27,276 nt of DNA from a virus, in the IMG/VR virus record IMGVR_UViG_3300030116_000491, positions 6,997 to 34,272 of that record. One strand, given 5' to 3'. The position numbers and the translations under genes are program-made. Below are positions 6,602 through 26,182 of the stretch, in pieces. Under the pieces are notes generated by a model. It did no database searches. It worked only from the letters and a program-made list of their open reading frames with translations, and was not told where the DNA came from. Each line of letters starts with the position of its first letter. The stretch's first letter is position 1.

Positions 6602-6846
6602 TATCTACAAATCCTTTCCATCATATTATCTAGTTTATTTTCAAGTTTATCAAAACGATCTATAAGTTTTTCTATATCTCGTTCAACTTCATCTTTACGT
6701 GCATACTCTTTTGCTATCTCTTCTCTAGTCTTACTAACTAATATACGTGCTTCATCTAGTTTTGTATTTACACCACGTATCCACCATATTACCATACCAG
6801 CAAAGCCGCTAAGTATAAGATTCCATATCATTGCGCTCTCTGGCAT
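6601..6846 (-). CDS. Small membrane protein with coiled coil, XhlA- or spanin-like
   Basis: The 81-residue protein has one N-terminal membrane segment (about 6-24, 'MIWNLILSGFAGMVIWWI') and then a long charged coiled coil (about 28-78) ending 'MERICR'. This topology is shared by XhlA-type haemolysin/holin accessory proteins and by inner-membrane spanins. It lies directly upstream of the M15 peptidase and overlaps both neighbours by a base, so a lysis role is likely from context. Which of the two families it belongs to cannot be decided by eye. Confidence 0.6.
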   Translation of the reverse strand: MPESAMIWNLILSGFAGMVIWWIRGVNTKLDEARILVSKTREEIAKEYARKDEVERDIEKLIDRFDKLENKLDNMMERICR

Positions 6847-9800
6847 TACTCTTCTCCTTTTGGATTTAAAGTAGTATTTACAAGTTCCTTATTTACATTT
6901 TGTAATTTAACGATTAAATCACCAAGTATACCTACATCATTTGATCTTTCTTGAACAAATTTTTGTAGTTTGTCAGTATCAATATCTTTTGGAACAAATA
7001 GTTCTTGTTTACTATCTTGAAGAGCTTGATTTGCAAATGCTCGTTCAACTTCAGGTGCTGTATTATAAGCATAGTTATTTGTAACAGCTTTAAGAACTCC
7101 CTCTGTTCCAAGTGTAAGTTTTTCTGTATCAGGTTTATTATTTTTATTTAAGAATTTTCTAGTGTAACTAAATTTAGAATATAAATCTATATTCTTATTA
7201 AGATCAGACAATCCTTTAACTTTTCTAAGTTGTAATTCTTTATATCTATCAACAATATTATCAATATCTTCTGGTGTAATTTGTTTAATAGGTAGCTTTC
7301 TAAGCTCATCATAGAACATAGAATCAACCTCACCTATTGCTTTTAAATCATTAAATGTTTTATATCCTATAGCTCTTTCAGGAAGAACGGTTTGCGATCT
7401 TATACCAGATAAAGAAAATAAAGCATCTTTTTTAGTCATAGGAAAACCACTAGCTCTCATACCAAGACCTTCACCTAGTAGTTCTTCAGCATCAGCCGCT
7501 AAAATATAATCTCTAACAAGTTTTACAGAACCACCTTGATAACCTTTTAAAAATTCTAGTGCTCGTCTTATTAAATTTTCTGCTGTTGTTGCTCCTACAC
7601 CCTCATCTAATATAGAACGACCTTGCTCATCTCTACCTGTAAATGCATTTATTAAATGTTTAGCAGCAAATTTAGGAGAGGTGAAAGAATTAGTTAATAA
7701 TTTAGCAGCATCTGAAAAAGCATTATCTATATCAGTTTCACTAATATCTACAGCAAGAGGATTTTTTGCACCTAGTATTCTTGCAGTTATTAATCTAACA
7801 GGAGCCATAATATAATCATAAGCATGTGCAGAGCTACTGCTTACATAACGACCTCTTATTTGAGGAACATAATTTTCTTTTTGTTCTGGAGTTAGACCTT
7901 CTCCTATTTCATCTAATACAAAACCACCATCAAAAAATAATTTAGTGCTGCCTTTACCAAAATCAGGATCTATAGAATTTAAAACTTTTCTTTCATTTGA
8001 TCCAATTCCATTTGCCTCATTATTTGAACTTACCATATATTCAGCACCAGCACCTATTGATCCTAATCCTACAAGTCTTTCTGTAAATCTTTTAAGATGG
8101 TAAGCTCTTTGAGCTTTTGTTTTTCCTTTTCTAAATGCATCTGGAAGATCTTTAAAAAATGCATATTTAAGTATATTTTTAGTAGTTCTTAAAACTTCAG
8201 AGGGAAATAACACATAGTTTCCAATAAAAGGAGTACGACTAATAAAACGAGCTAATGGAGCAGCTTCTCCATATGTAGGCATAGTATCTTTAACATACGT
8301 AGCTGCTCTTCTAATAGCTTCATCATCTGATAATTTAGGAAAATACTTTTTAATATCTGCGTATTCTGCCTCAAAAGCAATTAATTTTGCATATGCATCT
8401 GGTTGTCCATAAGCGGAACCAAATTTTTGCATAACTCTACCATATCCCCTAAAAAATGCATTTTTAGGTGTATCTCCAAAAAGATTTGCATTTCTTGCAA
8501 TCATTTCTCCTGTTACATCTTGTTCAAGTACACCTAATCTTCTAAGTGTAGCAAGTTTTTTAACAGCTTTAGGATCTTTTAATCTTATTTGTTCTGCCAG
8601 TGTTTTTAATTCTGTAACAGCAGCTTTATAAGCACGAGGTTTTAACATCATACCATTTAATGTTAAAGCCTGACCTGCACCATACAAGTTTAATAAATAA
8701 GCAGGAGCATCTAAAATGGTTTCTTTTGCTTGTGCAAGTGCTGCGGCTCTACCAAGAAAATTTTGTAGACCTTTACCCTTATTGTTACCTATATCTAAAC
8801 CAGCATTAAGAAGTTCTCCAACTTCTTTACTAGCAAATACATTGTTAAGAAGTTTTTTATTATCTCCTCCAAATCTACCAATAGAATTTTTTACAATCTG
8901 TTCTAAATTATAATCTAATTGATCAGTTTCTCTTGCGCTAAAAGTTGTCTTGGTAGATAAACCCGGTACAAAACTTTTTAATGGAACATCTTTATCTATA
9001 CCAGCCCTAGCTAGTTTATCTACTTCTGTAAGATAATTTAACTCACTAAGAAGTTTGTTTTGCTGTTGTAATGTAACAGCTATTTTTTTAAAAGGATCAG
9101 TCTCTTCACCTAAAAGTTCTAAGATGTTTTTATCTAAATCTTTTTTTTCTTTTAAAATTTTAATTGCACCCTGACTAGCGGAAAAGCCTTGGCCCACTGG
9201 TTCAAAAAAACTTTCAACAATATTTTTTTCAGAACCCCCTAATTTTTTAACTAAGAGTTTTATATATTCATCAACATCTTGCTCTGCTACACCCTCTTTA
9301 AGAAAATAATTACGAGCATTTTGAACTCTTGCTATAAACTCAGCATCAACTTTAGGAATGTAATCTTCACCTAGTCTTCTTCTTTTAGCTAATTCATCTA
9401 CAGTTTTTCTAATTTTATTTACATATCCAACATTATTATTAGCTTCAAATGTACGAGTAAAATAAACAGTGCCATCAACTGCACGACCAAATCCAATACG
9501 ACTTTCACCCTCTAAACCAAGAAAATCATTTATTTTATTCTCATTGTTTTGAATTAAATTTTTAATATTAGAAACTTGTTCTAAAGTTTTAGGACTATTA
9601 TCTAATCCAGACATATCATTTTTATTTATTGCATTAGATAAAGCTTCACTACTTACTCCTTCTTCTTTTTGTAATCTATCTAATTTTTTTACTTCAGATT
9701 TAATTTCTATTTTAAAACCTTTATCAGCATTAAATCTTTCATTTATAAGATCTACATACTCTTTAGGTAAACTACCATCACTTCTTAAAAGTCTACCTGT

Positions 9801-11105
9801 TTTTAAATCAGGTAAAATTCTAACAAGTTTTTCTCTAATAGTGTCTTTCTTAACAATAGTTCCTTCTTTATTTTCATTTACTTTAGAACTTATAACAACA
9901 TCATTTTCAGTTGGTGGAGGTACATCTAACTCTCCACTTTTCTCTGCGTCATTTAATTGCTTAGATTTATTTTTTAATCTATTAGATAATGATACAGTTC
10001 CTTTTACACCATATTTAGCTGTTGTAACAAGACCTGCTGCAATAGTAGACAGTGCTAAATTAAAACCAATAGCATCTTTAAGTCTTCTTATTCTTTTCTG
10101 CGCTTCTGTATCATTAGGACTATCAACTAAAGTTTTTGCAGCATCCATTATAATACTATCTTTTACAAAAGGCTCTAAAGTTTGTGCAACACTTCCTATA
10201 GCACCTTCTTCTTTTGATAGTCTTTCTATATTTGTTATAAATTCAGACATTAGAGGATCATCCTCTTCTGCCATTTGTACATCTAATTGAACAACAGTTG
10301 CACCTCCTCCAGCTAAACCAGTAGTTTTAGCAATTCGTTTTTTTAATTTAGAGGGTGGCTTTGGTGTGCTTGTTTCAATTTTAGTTACTGAATCTTTTTT
10401 ACGAATAACTTTTGTATCATCTAGTTCTTTTACTATTTTAGCTATTTTATTAGCTCTCTTTTTACCAACCTTTAAAGCAAGATCTTGAATAAGTTTTGTA
10501 ACACCAAGACCACCAGCAAGGTAAGTTAATAATTCACCAGCAATTTTTTCATTATCTGTTATATCAGGATTTAAATTCTTTTTAAAATTTTCATATGATT
10601 TATTAAGTTCTGATTTTTCAAGTTTATTAAAAAGTTCAGGAGAAGTAAGTGCAGTAACTGTTTTAGCAGCCTCTATAGGAAAGGTTGCTGTTTCAGTTAC
10701 TGCTTTACCAAATATACGACCTGCACTTTCTTCTGCTTGTTTTTCTCCTTCTCTAGCTATTTGTAAAGAAGAGCCAAGAGTTTCAGCACCTGCCATTAAT
10801 TTATCTAGAATATTAAGTTCCTTTTCCTCCATCTCACCTAGAGGATCAGCATCTACAGAATAAGGTTCTACAGGAATCTCTTCTTCCATTTCAAGCAGAG
10901 GATCTTGTTCTTCTGAGTATCCTTGAAATGGAGTTACATTAAGACTTTTATAAAACTGATCCTCATCTAAATCATAAAGTTGATTTATATCTTTTTCATA
11001 AGTTTTATCTGCAAATTCTTGATCAGATAAATTTCTATAAGCATCGCCTATTCTTAAATCATCTAGATCTTTTTGTATTTTTTCTCTGGTAAGGGCTTCT
11101 ACCAT
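6846..11105 (-). CDS. Very large internal virion / DNA-ejection protein candidate
   Basis: At 1419 residues this is the largest gene of the window. The N-terminal part is acidic and contains two copies of a short element ('DPLLEMEEE' and 'DPLGEMEEK', about 68-95). Two hydrophobic, Ala/Gly-rich patches lie in the first third (such as 'AGELLTYLAGGLGV'). The middle is long helical, Lys/Glu-rich. A conserved-looking part around 'AYGQPDAYAKLIAFEAEYAD' followed by 'RFISRTPFIGNYVLFPSEVL' reminds me of the large polyvalent-protein associated domain LPD38, from memory only. I see no transglycosylase motif. Size, place after the nozzle candidate and pairing with a 699-residue helical protein match podoviral internal core or ejection proteins. 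The ribosome site lies in the end of the upstream gene. Confidence 0.6.
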   Translation of the reverse strand: MVEALTREKIQKDLDDLRIGDAYRNLSDQEFADKTYEKDINQLYDLDEDQFYKSLNVTPFQGYSEEQDPLLEMEEEIPVEPYSVDADPLGEMEEKELNILDKLMAGAETLGSSLQIAREGEKQAEESAGRIFGKAVTETATFPIEAAKTVTALTSPELFNKLEKSELNKSYENFKKNLNPDITDNEKIAGELLTYLAGGLGVTKLIQDLALKVGKKRANKIAKIVKELDDTKVIRKKDSVTKIETSTPKPPSKLKKRIAKTTGLAGGGATVVQLDVQMAEEDDPLMSEFITNIERLSKEEGAIGSVAQTLEPFVKDSIIMDAAKTLVDSPNDTEAQKRIRRLKDAIGFNLALSTIAAGLVTTAKYGVKGTVSLSNRLKNKSKQLNDAEKSGELDVPPPTENDVVISSKVNENKEGTIVKKDTIREKLVRILPDLKTGRLLRSDGSLPKEYVDLINERFNADKGFKIEIKSEVKKLDRLQKEEGVSSEALSNAINKNDMSGLDNSPKTLEQVSNIKNLIQNNENKINDFLGLEGESRIGFGRAVDGTVYFTRTFEANNNVGYVNKIRKTVDELAKRRRLGEDYIPKVDAEFIARVQNARNYFLKEGVAEQDVDEYIKLLVKKLGGSEKNIVESFFEPVGQGFSASQGAIKILKEKKDLDKNILELLGEETDPFKKIAVTLQQQNKLLSELNYLTEVDKLARAGIDKDVPLKSFVPGLSTKTTFSARETDQLDYNLEQIVKNSIGRFGGDNKKLLNNVFASKEVGELLNAGLDIGNNKGKGLQNFLGRAAALAQAKETILDAPAYLLNLYGAGQALTLNGMMLKPRAYKAAVTELKTLAEQIRLKDPKAVKKLATLRRLGVLEQDVTGEMIARNANLFGDTPKNAFFRGYGRVMQKFGSAYGQPDAYAKLIAFEAEYADIKKYFPKLSDDEAIRRAATYVKDTMPTYGEAAPLARFISRTPFIGNYVLFPSEVLRTTKNILKYAFFKDLPDAFRKGKTKAQRAYHLKRFTERLVGLGSIGAGAEYMVSSNNEANGIGSNERKVLNSIDPDFGKGSTKLFFDGGFVLDEIGEGLTPEQKENYVPQIRGRYVSSSSAHAYDYIMAPVRLITARILGAKNPLAVDISETDIDNAFSDAAKLLTNSFTSPKFAAKHLINAFTGRDEQGRSILDEGVGATTAENLIRRALEFLKGYQGGSVKLVRDYILAADAEELLGEGLGMRASGFPMTKKDALFSLSGIRSQTVLPERAIGYKTFNDLKAIGEVDSMFYDELRKLPIKQITPEDIDNIVDRYKELQLRKVKGLSDLNKNIDLYSKFSYTRKFLNKNNKPDTEKLTLGTEGVLKAVTNNYAYNTAPEVERAFANQALQDSKQELFVPKDIDTDKLQKFVQERSNDVGILGDLIVKLQNVNKELVNTTLNPKGEE

Positions 11106-22622: not shown

Positions 22623-22835
22623 TTAACGTCTAGCTCGTCCACCACGAGAACGATACTTAGTAGCTTTACCACCACCCATGCGTCTTACTGTGCCACCACG
22701 AGAGCGATATTTAGTAGCTTTACCACCACCCATTCTTCTCAAAGCACCACCTCTAGACTTATACTTAGTAGCTTTACCGCCACCCATACGTCTTACTGGT
22801 CCACCTTTAGACTTCATCTTCGTTCTTTTCATCAT
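22623..22835 (-). CDS. Basic tandem-repeat protein (three 18-residue repeats)
   Basis: The protein of about 70 residues is a short Lys/Arg start ('MMKRTKMKSKGGPV') followed by three near-identical 18-residue units of the form 'RRMGGGKATKYRSRGGTV', ending 'RARR'. It is extremely basic and Gly-rich, with no hydrophobic core, so probably disordered alone. The composition resembles histone tails or protamine-like peptides, by analogy only. I chose ATG 22835, which has AGGAG ten bases upstream inside the 231-residue gene. An ATG at 22856 has none. It overlaps that gene by 29 bases. Confidence 0.65.
   Translation of the reverse strand: MMKRTKMKSKGGPVRRMGGGKATKYKSRGGALRRMGGGKATKYRSRGGTVRRMGGGKATKYRSRGGRARR
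22639..22816 (-). repeat. 54-bp tandem repeats
   Basis: Units begin at 22639, 22693 and 22747, with a partial fourth from 22801, each exactly 54 bp apart. The core 'ttagtagctttaccaccacc' (plus strand) is nearly invariant. Differences are mainly at silent or Lys/Arg-swapping sites, so protein sequence is under selection. The unit length is a multiple of three, so copy number can change without breaking the frame. Confidence 0.85.
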
Positions 22836-23502
22836 CTGGATCACACTCCTCTGCATATAAGTTGTTGAAAGTAATATTAGGATTCATATAACTATTATCT
22901 ATCTCTGCTGAATGTACATATTGACTTGGTGTAAAATCTGGTGCTCCTTCTCCAGTAACCCACAAAGCAGGATTAGTTACTCTTACTCTGTTATTAGGTA
23001 ACGCTACGATGTTACCTGTAAATTCATCTGCATCTATAAGTTCTAATACATGTGATTGTTTATGTTGTGCTGGATCATCAGAAATATAACTGTCTGTATA
23101 ATCTACTGTAAACATATAACGACCTGTATAAAACTCTCCATTTATTTTACAAAGCCACGGACTAGAAGATATTCTGTCCATAACTATTACACTATGATTT
23201 CTAGCAGAGCAGTCCCAAGGTTGGGCAAAATGTGTAGGCATTAACTCAGGCCATTCATCTAACTCTGTGTCTGCTACTAATGCAGCTATTGGCATCCTAG
23301 CCCACATAGCTCCACCATGTACATTTTCTTCTTCATCACATCCAGTAAATACTACTTGAAAACTTAATGATCTATCTGGTATAGTATTAACTGCAAAAGC
23401 TAAAGCGTGTAAGTATTCTCCTTGATATTCTTCATGATTAGTTGTAAACTCTTTACGCACCCAACATTTAAAATGAGGGATGTTTGATATTAAGTAGGAC
23501 AT
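22807..23502 (-). CDS. Conserved-looking structural-operon protein, 231 residues
   Basis: The protein starts 'MSYLISNIPHFKCWVRKEFT' and contains 'GGAMWARMPIAALVADTEL', 'HFAQPWDCSARNHSVIVMDR', 'FTVDYTDSYISDDPAQHKQS' and 'ALWVTGEGAPDFTPSQYVHS'. The C-terminus is acidic ('EECDPDDEKNEDEV'). I recall close relatives in several marine phage groups, always unnamed. It is a beta-rich, probably globular protein and, at 231 residues, the one large non-basic protein inside the basic cassette. GGAG lies about 13 bases before ATG. The acidic tail may neutralise or chaperone the basic neighbours, which is only a guess. Confidence 0.7.
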   Translation of the reverse strand: MSYLISNIPHFKCWVRKEFTTNHEEYQGEYLHALAFAVNTIPDRSLSFQVVFTGCDEEENVHGGAMWARMPIAALVADTELDEWPELMPTHFAQPWDCSARNHSVIVMDRISSSPWLCKINGEFYTGRYMFTVDYTDSYISDDPAQHKQSHVLELIDADEFTGNIVALPNNRVRVTNPALWVTGEGAPDFTPSQYVHSAEIDNSYMNPNITFNNLYAEECDPDDEKNEDEV

Positions 23503-23815: not shown

Positions 23816-23959
23816 TTATATCTTTACATAAGTATCTTTATATTTTTGAATTAAATAGTAACATAAGTCAGTCCAATATATTTTAAAGTCTGTATAGTCT
23901 TCACGATTAGGTTTAACTATATCATAGTTTATTTTACTATTATCAATATCTATAGCCAT
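23816..23959 (-). CDS. Small acidic/Tyr-rich hypothetical protein, 47 residues
   Basis: ATG at 23959 overlaps the stop of the 228-residue gene as TGATG, and the frame runs to TAA 23816-23818. The product begins 'MAIDIDNSKINYDIVKPNRE' and has a Tyr/Lys-rich helix 'LCYYLIQKYKDTYVKI'. It is not basic, unlike its neighbours. The 144 bases between the two basic genes would otherwise be empty. No family is recognised. Confidence 0.6.
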   Translation of the reverse strand: MAIDIDNSKINYDIVKPNREDYTDFKIYWTDLCYYLIQKYKDTYVKI

Positions 23960-24645
23960 CAATACATCTTGTTAGAATAAGTAGCTTTACCAAAACCTTT
24001 CATGGCTTGACCTACACCACGAACTTTACCACCTACGTTACGTTTTACTTTACCACCTAACTTACGTATTTCAAAACCACCCATATCCATAATTTCTTTT
24101 TCAGTGGGTGGTACACCTCTAGCAGTAAGTCCCATACGATCTGCTACATCTTGTCTAGCTGGTGCAAATTCACCTGTCTCTACAAGGCGACTCTTACCAC
24201 CTTTACCGGGACGTACTTTTGCTTTACCTTGAGCTACAAGACTACGCCTACGTGCAGGAGAAACCTTTTCAGGAAGTTTAGCTTTAGATAGAAGTGGCCC
24301 TTGTTCTACCTCTTGTCCCTCTGGACCTGTCTTACGTCTACCAGCTAAAACATTAGAACCTCTTTCATCTGAGATTTCATCTCGTTTTTGAGATTTAATT
24401 AAACGATTAAGTTCGCTTTGTTCAGCCCTAGTTCTTTTTACTTTAGGGGTTTTTGATTTTTTAGGTGCAGCTTCTTTGATAGCTTTTTTTAACTCAGCAT
24501 CAGATTTCTTTTTTGCTTCTGTTAAAGAGATACCTAATGCTTTTGCACCTTTCTTCTGAAGTTCAGTAGCAGCTTTTCTTCCACGAGGTTTTCTTTTTCT
24601 ACCTCTTTTTAAAGATTCTTTAAGTGCTGATTTTACCACAGACAT
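23959..24645 (-). CDS. Large basic protein, 228 residues
   Basis: The protein starts 'MSVVKSALKESLKRGRKRKP', almost the same N-terminus as the 201-residue protein at 24894-25499. The middle is Lys/Arg/Ala-rich helices ('TRAEQSELNRLIKSQKRDEI'), followed by 'PARRRSLVAQGKAKV' and a Gly-rich C-terminus 'LGGKVKRNVGGKVRGVGQAM' ending 'ATYSNKMY'. Overall it is strongly cationic with low complexity. The first 14 residues and the GGKV repeats are shared cassette features. It is coupled to the following 47-residue gene by TGATG. DNA binding inside the head is a possibility, nothing more. Confidence 0.7.
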   Translation of the reverse strand: MSVVKSALKESLKRGRKRKPRGRKAATELQKKGAKALGISLTEAKKKSDAELKKAIKEAAPKKSKTPKVKRTRAEQSELNRLIKSQKRDEISDERGSNVLAGRRKTGPEGQEVEQGPLLSKAKLPEKVSPARRRSLVAQGKAKVRPGKGGKSRLVETGEFAPARQDVADRMGLTARGVPPTEKEIMDMGGFEIRKLGGKVKRNVGGKVRGVGQAMKGFGKATYSNKMY

Positions 24646-24647
24646 GA

Positions 24648-24824
24648 TTAACTCTCCACTTTAAAAGCTTTACCTTGAGTATAATCTTCATCTACTATAA
24701 CATCTTGAGGTGGTCCTTTTACATCTGGACCTTTACGTGCAGCACCATAACCTTGTCCAGTAGGTCTGCCTACAATTTCATCTAAATTATGTGGACGTTT
24801 AATTAATGTATGAGGTCCAATCAT
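24648..24824 (-). CDS. Small hypothetical protein, 58 residues
   Basis: The frame begins at ATG 24824 and ends with TAA 24648-24650, two bases before the 228-residue gene. The product starts 'MIGPHTLIKRPHNLDEIVGR', continues 'PTGQGYGAARKGPDVKGPPQ' and ends 'YTQGKAFKVES'. It is Gly/Pro-rich and probably extended. Strong AGGAGA at 24830-24835 sits five bases before the ATG. The gene overlaps the 26-residue polycation upstream by ATGA. No family is recognised. Confidence 0.65.
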   Translation of the reverse strand: MIGPHTLIKRPHNLDEIVGRPTGQGYGAARKGPDVKGPPQDVIVDEDYTQGKAFKVES

Positions 24825-24901
24825 TTCTTTCTCCTCTTTTTCTTTCGTTTCTTTTTAGGTGGTTTAGTTATCTGTTGTCTAACACTTGATCTACTAATCA
24901 T
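24821..24901 (-). CDS. 26-residue polycationic peptide
   Basis: ATG at 24901 lies in the last codons of the 201-residue gene and the frame ends at TGA 24821-24823, overlapping the next ATG as ATGA. The product is 'MISRSSVRQQITK' followed by 'PPKKKRKKKRRKK': 14 of 26 residues are Lys or Arg. The last codons (AGG AGA) double as the Shine-Dalgarno of the next gene, so part of the Arg content may be forced by that. Whether it is a real product or a translational relay is open. Confidence 0.4.
   Translation of the reverse strand: MISRSSVRQQITKPPKKKRKKKRRKK
24830..24835 (-). promoter_or_regulatory. Ribosome binding site inside the polycation ORF
   Basis: AGGAGA on the minus strand, five bases before ATG 24824. 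It is the strongest such site in the cassette and supports the 58-residue gene. Confidence 0.65.
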
Positions 24902-25499
24902 CGTACATCATAGATACGATTTGACCACCTTTCATAGCAGCAACTATTCTACCACCTTTTTTAGCTACAGCAAATCCCATATCTTTAGCTGCTTGTTTAC
25001 CTTTTGGTCCTGAAGCTACAAGTGCTCGTATACCTTTTCCTTCACTACCTTGAGGTATAGCTTTACCACCACCAGCTTTTGGAATGTTTTTACCTCTTAC
25101 TTTTGATCGTCCACCCGGACCACCCCTAGATTTCATATCTTTAATAGAATTTCTTAAAGCCGTAATACGTTGTTTATTTTTATTTATAAATTTTAACTTT
25201 GCTGTTCCTGATAAATTATCAACTTGTTCTTTATATTTTGCTAATTTATCTTCCTTTATTTTTAAAGCTTTATCAAACTCATCTGCTTGTTTAGCTGTTA
25301 CTTGAGAGGATCGTATTTTAGTGTCAGCAGCTTCAGCAGTTGTTCCGGGTGTTCCCATTGCTGGTTGTTTTACATCAGCAGCAGCTTTACCTTCAGCTTT
25401 TCTTACTTTTTTAGCAGCAGGAGTATTTTGTTGTTTTACTCCTAAATCTGAAGTTTTTCTTTTTAAAGATTTTTTAAGTGCTGATTTTAATATAGACAT
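24894..25499 (-). CDS. Basic protein, 201 residues, paralogue-like N-terminus
   Basis: The protein starts 'MSILKSALKKSLKRKTSDLG', matching the 228-residue protein. A helical, Ala/Lys-rich middle follows ('QADEFDKALKIKEDKLAKYK'), then 'SRGGPGGRSKVRGKNIPKAG' and a C-terminus with 'AVAKKGGRIVAAMKGGQIVS' ending in 'MMYDD'. The K-G-G-x-I/V element occurs twice here, and similar GGKV/GGSL elements occur in the 228- and 699-residue proteins. It is the first gene of the basic cassette, three bases after the adaptor stop. Function unknown. Virion-internal or assembly roles are guesses. Confidence 0.7.
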   Translation of the reverse strand: MSILKSALKKSLKRKTSDLGVKQQNTPAAKKVRKAEGKAAADVKQPAMGTPGTTAEAADTKIRSSQVTAKQADEFDKALKIKEDKLAKYKEQVDNLSGTAKLKFINKNKQRITALRNSIKDMKSRGGPGGRSKVRGKNIPKAGGGKAIPQGSEGKGIRALVASGPKGKQAAKDMGFAVAKKGGRIVAAMKGGQIVSMMYDD

Positions 25500-25501
25500 A
25501 A

Positions 25502-26182
25502 TTAAGATGCTCCTCTTTGAATTGTATTTGGCCCACCAGCAGGAGAAGCAGCAACTGCCATATCATCCTGTCTTGTTCTTCTAGCCTGATTACGTAGTGC
25601 TTGAACTTGATCAACATATTGTTGAGTCCAATACTGTAGATTACTCCAATCTTTATTAAACATTGTAGCTTCCATTAGAGAAGCATAAAATAAAGCGTTA
25701 TAACAATACTCACTAAAATAGTTAGTTGTTGTTACACTTGTACCTGTAGCAGATGCTAGAGGTAATGGTTGAGATTGAGTTTGTATTTCTGTCGTGATAA
25801 CAGATGATGGTGTTGGAACTATTTTTAATGTAAGATTATCTTTTCTAGAATAATAACGTGGTGTGCCAGTAGAAGCACTAACAGGCCAATAGTCCTTGAC
25901 ATATTCAAAAGTACGTGGTAATAAGTTAGTAACGGTGGTTCCAGTACTAACTACATAGTTTACATTGCGAACTACACGTACACGATCATTAAGAGTTACT
26001 GCACCAGCATTTCCAGAAGATACAGAAACATTTGTAAATTCATCTAATCCAAAATCATCAAGATCTTTTATAAGACGAAACTCTGCTCGTTGTATAAAAC
26101 CAGTAATAGCACTGGTGAACTCAGTGCCATCATTTTCAGAAGTCTCTTGGATATCTGATTTTAGTTGAGCAAAATTAGGCAT
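25502..26182 (-). CDS. Head-tail adaptor-like protein
   Basis: The 226-residue protein begins 'FAQLKSDIQETSENDGTEFT' and 'AITGFIQRAEFRLIKDLDDF' (helix bundle, 1-50), has a beta-rich middle ('LPRTFEYVKDYWPVSASTGT', 'RYYSRKDNLTLKIVPTP') and C-terminal helices ('YFSEYCYNALFYASLMEATM', 'WTQQYVDQVQALRNQARR'). This helix-beta-helix layout fits SU10/gp7-type phage adaptors, the disc below the portal. It lies close after the capsid gene as expected. It is a distant look-alike of the gp4-like protein at 21100-21774. Confidence 0.6.
   Translation of the reverse strand: MPNFAQLKSDIQETSENDGTEFTSAITGFIQRAEFRLIKDLDDFGLDEFTNVSVSSGNAGAVTLNDRVRVVRNVNYVVSTGTTVTNLLPRTFEYVKDYWPVSASTGTPRYYSRKDNLTLKIVPTPSSVITTEIQTQSQPLPLASATGTSVTTTNYFSEYCYNALFYASLMEATMFNKDWSNLQYWTQQYVDQVQALRNQARRTRQDDMAVAASPAGGPNTIQRGAS

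Follow-up and report, generated by a model that had tools for sequence, protein, structure and literature searches.

Two modular proteins from an uncultured marine podovirus-like phage bear matched, exchangeable N-terminal leaders

Two genes in the head/adaptor region of an uncultured marine podovirus-like phage, here called slots 1 and 2, encode basic proteins that begin alike and then differ, and their common leader is a separable module that, among relatives, is replaced on a constant body and, within genomes, is matched between the two slots. The slot proteins are modular, each consisting of a leader, a body and a C-terminal tail, and the leaders are exchanged in concert. The window analyzed (27,276 nucleotides, positions 6,997 to 34,272 of IMG/VR record IMGVR_UViG_3300030116_000491) contains both genes, along with the other features listed in Table 1.

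Table 1. Positions of the slot genes, their parts and relevant neighbors in the window
Feature	Position	Strand	Remarks
Slot-1 gene, 201-aa basic protein	24894..25499	-	Leader, helical-hairpin body (residues 55-125, AlphaFold2 model) and C-terminal tail A
Slot-2 gene (P0001), 228-aa basic protein	23959..24645	-	Leader, body with helical segment 28-59, and C-terminal tail B
Slot-1 leader MSILKSALKKSLKR	25458..25499	-	
Slot-2 leader MSVVKSALKESLKR, matching slot-1 leader	24604..24645	-	
Tail A KKGGRIVAAMKGGQIVSMMYDD	24897..24962	-	Near-constant slot-1 C-terminus in 14 close genomes
Tail B GGKVKRNVGGKVRGVGQAMKGFGKATYSNKMY	23962..24057	-	Constant across unrelated slot-2 bodies, including SLT transglycosylases
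Conserved 58-aa gene between slots, used as anchor	24648..24824	-	Invariant GRPTGQGxGAARKGP
SU10-type adaptor gene, immediately upstream of slot 1	25502..26182	-	PF24175
DNA ejection protein homologue, 699 aa	11110..13209	-	phrog_4287; exchanged with slots among near-identical genomes
1419-aa protein adjoining 699-aa gene, putative large ejection protein	6846..11105	-	Family tracks slot-2 body class

The original prediction, made from the sequence alone, was that the 201- and 228-residue proteins share an N-terminal leader and are otherwise different, and both open reading frames lie where they had been placed, on the minus strand. The leaders MSILKSALKKSLKR and MSVVKSALKESLKR are identical at 11 of 14 residues, and the pair is unique in the 34-kb record: among 1128 pairs (48 proteins), the next best reaches 7/14, and no residue shuffle of 200,000 attained 11/14. 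Their DNA is identical at 38 of 42 bases, the codons of the 11 shared residues show no synonymous change, and the 24 bases upstream of the two starts match at 11 positions. Past the leader, bodies and C-terminal tails are unrelated, and the two proteins differ from whole-gene paralogues in having no full-length homology. Both leaders are basic (net +5 and +3), but their description as amphipathic was not borne out, the hydrophobic moment of each being no higher than that of shuffled leaders (P = 0.24 each).

A search for the leader in related phages, as suggested with the original prediction, found it replaced by unrelated leaders, yet the slot-1 and slot-2 neighbors usually match. Scans of IMG/VR recovered orthologues of both slot genes, the relatives being at least those listed; in close contigs, slot-2 bodies are ~90 to 96% identical and the first 14 to 35 residues are those of another leader, with the corresponding leader on the neighboring slot-1 gene. 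Five leader types were distinguished, as follows: (i) type I, MSILKSALKKSLKR/MSVVKSALKESLKR, in the window and also in 3300029319; (ii) type II, with the pairs MAKSLVGNIAKRAG/MAKTLTKEIAKRAG and MAKRLIRSIAKRAG/MAKRLISTIAKRAG; (iii) type III, MARQKLSKTLRGKSTSSLSGRSER/MTKKLSKVLRGKSASSLSGRSER; (iv) type IV, a weaker pair, ...STRGSARGRR/...TTKGAARGRR; and (v) type V, MAGRKIASTVGKQIGK/MSSRKVATEVTKRVGR, from a more distant clade. The slot-1 body does not fix the leader type: one such body occurs with leaders of types I, II and IV, and two different ones (those of the window and L048) both bear type I. Seven contigs have exactly two leader copies each, and a third carrier, sought in all seven, was not found. 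Slot-1 and slot-2 leaders are without a match in L204, L235 and L247, and matched leaders occur on tail-bearing or slot-region pairs in L040, L256, L194 and L191. As a separate observation, three consecutive tail-bearing genes at L191:3116-4319 start with MSNIKK, and two of them share 39/42 leader bases.

This pattern bears directly on the suggestion that the two genes descend from an old duplication, with the N-terminus as its last recognizable remnant. Both proteins are basic and similar in size, as such a history would have it, but it is already contradicted because leaders are replaced on constant bodies: close relatives retain the bodies and change both leaders, slot-1 bodies change while the leaders still match, and the bodies and tails of the two proteins differ. 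We find this origin scarcely credible.

The pairing of leaders was evaluated statistically. Among 62 distinct slot-1/slot-2 pairs, from a scan in which the gene finder mis-called some slots (other small ORFs, truncated SLT starts), the top seven leader scores all come from the P0001 slot-2 body class; L007 scored low because its match starts at residue 13/10. Permutation of slot-2 leaders among 17 genomes, hand-picked from the P0001 class, gave P = 5e-5, which is the floor of the test; a single genome from each of the 13 leader families gave P = 1.5e-4 to 1e-3. Upon removal of the six closest pairs, the result is not significant (P = 0.07 to 0.47), so the strength of the pairing rests on types I to III. 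The 17 genomes exclude near-duplicates (L011, L233, L240-L244 and L250) and those whose slot-1 gene was not identified or whose layout is different (L187, L207, L246, L251, L253-L262 and L172/L176, the last two noticed after the choice had been made). A wider comparison of 11,805 gene pairs from 274 loci yielded 22 pairs with at least 8/14 identities. Slot or tail-bearing proteins make up most of the best among these, with L040, L256, L194, L191 and L172 as new cases; the remaining high-scoring pairs are lysine-rich small proteins, likely paralogues or a recurring head-region gene pair.

Within pairs, leader DNA is 78 to 90% identical in most cases (63% in L026 and 54% in L238), and identity ends at the coding start, the upstream 24 bases matching at 6 to 13 positions. 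In L004, both slots use the same codons for the first six leader residues, and these differ from the slot-2 leader of L026, a near relative; the comparison points to copying of the L004 leader from slot 1 to slot 2. Type III pairs have 3 to 5 synonymous differences where their residues agree, so likeness in protein outlives identity in DNA; moreover, slot-specific residues of this type are kept across three genomes, and copying is thus not continuous.

Matching could be neutral, a by-product of two A-rich gene starts recombining with each other, which would homogenize similar 5' ends with no selection for matching. The high DNA identity within most pairs, the absence of synonymous differences from the window pair, the apparent slot-to-slot copying in L004 and the highly recombinogenic nature of the slot region all fit such a process, but the end of identity at the coding start, the persistence of protein likeness beyond that of DNA in type III and the predominance of slot or tail-bearing proteins among the top matches of the 11,805 pairs argue against it, and we think it rather unlikely. 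Alternatively, the two gene starts might have in common a translational-control element that acts as RNA and not as protein. The likeness does lie at the start codon, and the DNA shows it strongly; nevertheless, it is absent upstream of the start, and L238 and L026 retain the protein pattern at the low DNA identities given above, making an RNA element highly improbable.

At their other ends, the slot proteins behave differently. Over 14 close genomes, the median identity of the last 22 residues is 0.95 in slot 1 and 0.82 in slot 2, versus a background of 0.07 to 0.14 for the N-termini and bodies of the same genomes; slot bodies are swapped between genomes while C-terminal tails stay constant. 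Tails are modules too, as is evident from slot 2 of L024, which bears tail A. The constant, address-like element across relatives is therefore the C-terminal tail rather than the leader. The original prediction had read the leader as a sorting or docking signal: as a class of explanation this stands, the leader being separable and matched in five types, but the part of constant address falls to another element. A plausible version of the idea moves it accordingly, with the tail as the constant address and the leader as a matched, exchangeable module. Among the bodies themselves, some of those in slot 2 are SLT transglycosylases (PF01464) matching phrog_342, and a LysM body is present in the slot region of L040.

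AlphaFold2 models (17 and 9 sequences) are of low overall confidence for both slot proteins; the confident parts are the small helical segment of the 228-aa protein and the helical hairpin of the 201-aa protein (Table 1). Both termini of both proteins score below 50, which fits short linear motifs and also poor alignments, and no confident structure was obtained for either leader. Foldseek returned no structural neighbor for the 228-aa model, and the P0001 family gave no match among PDB sequences. For residues 15 to 59 of the 228-aa protein, an AT-hook together with a SAP-like motif was considered, a reading dropped because it was unsupported by Pfam and Foldseek. The slot-1 proteins of L024, L047 and L043 have, just before the tail, a segment like LDVNKDGKLEASDFEEL that resembles an EF-hand or dockerin loop, and in L047 a near-copy of the 58-aa protein motif is inserted within the slot-1 body.

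Genes exchanged together with the slots point to what these proteins may do. Between the window record and G007, most compared genes are 93 to 100% identical, and the slots and the 699-aa and 1419-aa genes are replaced, the fibre and nozzle genes of G007 lying outside the stretches compared; relative to the 56-kb genome G001, fibre and nozzle proteins diverge as well. The 1419-aa protein, for which no useful family match was found, lies 13 kb from the slots and belongs to one of three families that are swapped between otherwise near-identical genomes. Slot-2 body class is associated with the family of this putative large ejection protein: P0001-class bodies occur in 8/9 genomes of the first family versus 0/7 of the others (Fisher P = 0.0014, a post hoc test uncorrected for kinship), the exception being G013, which has the E1 family of the large protein and no P0001-class body. 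Without two weakly placed genomes, P = 0.0047, and in the close clade alone, 0.018; the sample excludes G019, G020 and G022, whose region lies outside the stretches compared or which gave no 699-aa match. Leader type does not track large-protein subtype (Mantel r = 0.04, P = 0.39, 8 genomes). Co-exchange with ejection genes and the SLT and LysM bodies suggest that both slot proteins are part of an ejection or entry module, and the interchangeable tags probably sit on proteins that help the phage enter its host.

Several known systems resemble parts of this arrangement. As with P22-type ejection proteins (gp7, gp16 and gp20), the slots are exchanged with a phrog_4287 homologue and the adjacent large protein, but the slot proteins themselves match no ejection family, whereas the neighboring 699-aa protein does. 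Those slot-2 bodies that are SLT transglycosylases resemble the T7-like internal virion proteins that carry an SLT domain (phrog_342), although the window's slot-2 body has no such domain. Encapsulin cargo-loading peptides resemble the slot tails in that bodies unrelated to each other end in the same constant C-terminal peptide; however, there is no encapsulin here, and the slots also bear a matched N-terminal module.

The closest parallel in layout is with capsid targeting in T4, and the original prediction had suggested that the leader might direct proteins into the prohead. Under this explanation, a common propeptide would direct basic internal proteins to the prohead, to be cut off afterwards by the prohead protease. 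Cleavage of the T4 type occurs at a hydrophobic-x-E consensus, and such a site stands at the leader end in only 1 of the 14 slot leaders scanned. According to PMC9026906, T4 IPI, IPII and IPIII are basic proteins whose mature parts diverge and that have a ~10-residue targeting propeptide (CTS) in common, and the likeness lies in a short N-terminal sequence shared by several basic, divergent and variable proteins of one phage. The short N-terminus common to divergent proteins of one genome is found here as well, and the slots are located in the head/adaptor region. Against this, slot leaders vary between near-identical genomes, including those with 95 to 100% identical capsid proteins, and a constant C-terminal tail is also present. 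Among eight head-region proteins of G001, none was recognized as a separate prohead protease, although a diverged one could be missed, and the match between the capsid protein of that genome and phrog_4523 ("major head and protease protein") involves its capsid part alone. Because cleavage sites are not conserved and a separate protease was not recognized among those eight proteins, we do not file the leaders as a CTS system; delivery into the prohead appears improbable, and the T4 signal may serve as a good analogy, one of layout. The literature searches brought up nothing describing matched, genome-specific leaders or slot tails.

We propose that the slot proteins are accessory ejection or virion proteins of leader-body-tail make-up whose leaders are copied between exchangeable slots and kept matched for the same partner, a reading to which we give an even chance. 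The constant part, the C-terminal tail, would tie each protein to the constant virion, and the body would supply the swapped function. The leader would be a short separable module that short-tract recombination copies from one slot to the other within a genome, its match being retained because both proteins have to fit the same partner; this may be part of the ejection machinery, or the two proteins may fit each other. Such a need to fit one partner would probably be the reason why leaders are homogenized between slots. A virion location, docking and a partner of this kind are what the arrangement of the sequences suggests. More tentatively, the leaders may constitute a genome-specific code, in which each lineage has its own address peptide on two or three different ejection or virion proteins, recognized by a cognate partner, and changes it on all of them together; we hold this possible but doubtful. 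If true, it would amount to a system of docking tags evolving in concert, with independent swapping of cargo and C-terminal anchor. Leaders and tails give a sequence handle on uncharacterized proteins, possibly of the entry machinery, of uncultured marine phages, and if the matching is functional, covariation could serve to find leader-partner pairs, and tails could list virion cargo in many contigs.

Pfam, at E values up to 1, has no match for either slot protein, and PHROG gave noise-level matches only (best E = 0.037). Searches of phage isolates with P0002 returned just two weak Mycobacterium phage matches (E = 0.2 to 0.3), and those with P0001, the 58-aa protein and the tails returned no match; the slots are not recognizable in the annotation tables, the only source used here, of HTVC027P, CRP-901 and ctpbd312, isolates with a related adaptor. 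The 58-aa family has no relative in the genome_contigs collection. The 58-aa protein itself, absent from the isolates searched, is present at a minimum of 568 viral loci, of which 80 were kept. Two further genes near the slots deserve mention. At 22807-23502 (minus strand) lies a phrog_3704 protein that is widespread in marine phages and whose annotation elsewhere as ferredoxin or PurM looks doubtful. Positions 22623-22856 (minus strand) encode a short protein with near-tandem KSRGGxxRRMGGGKATKYRS repeats, which is one of a number of small, very basic proteins there (DUF6321, DUF5872).
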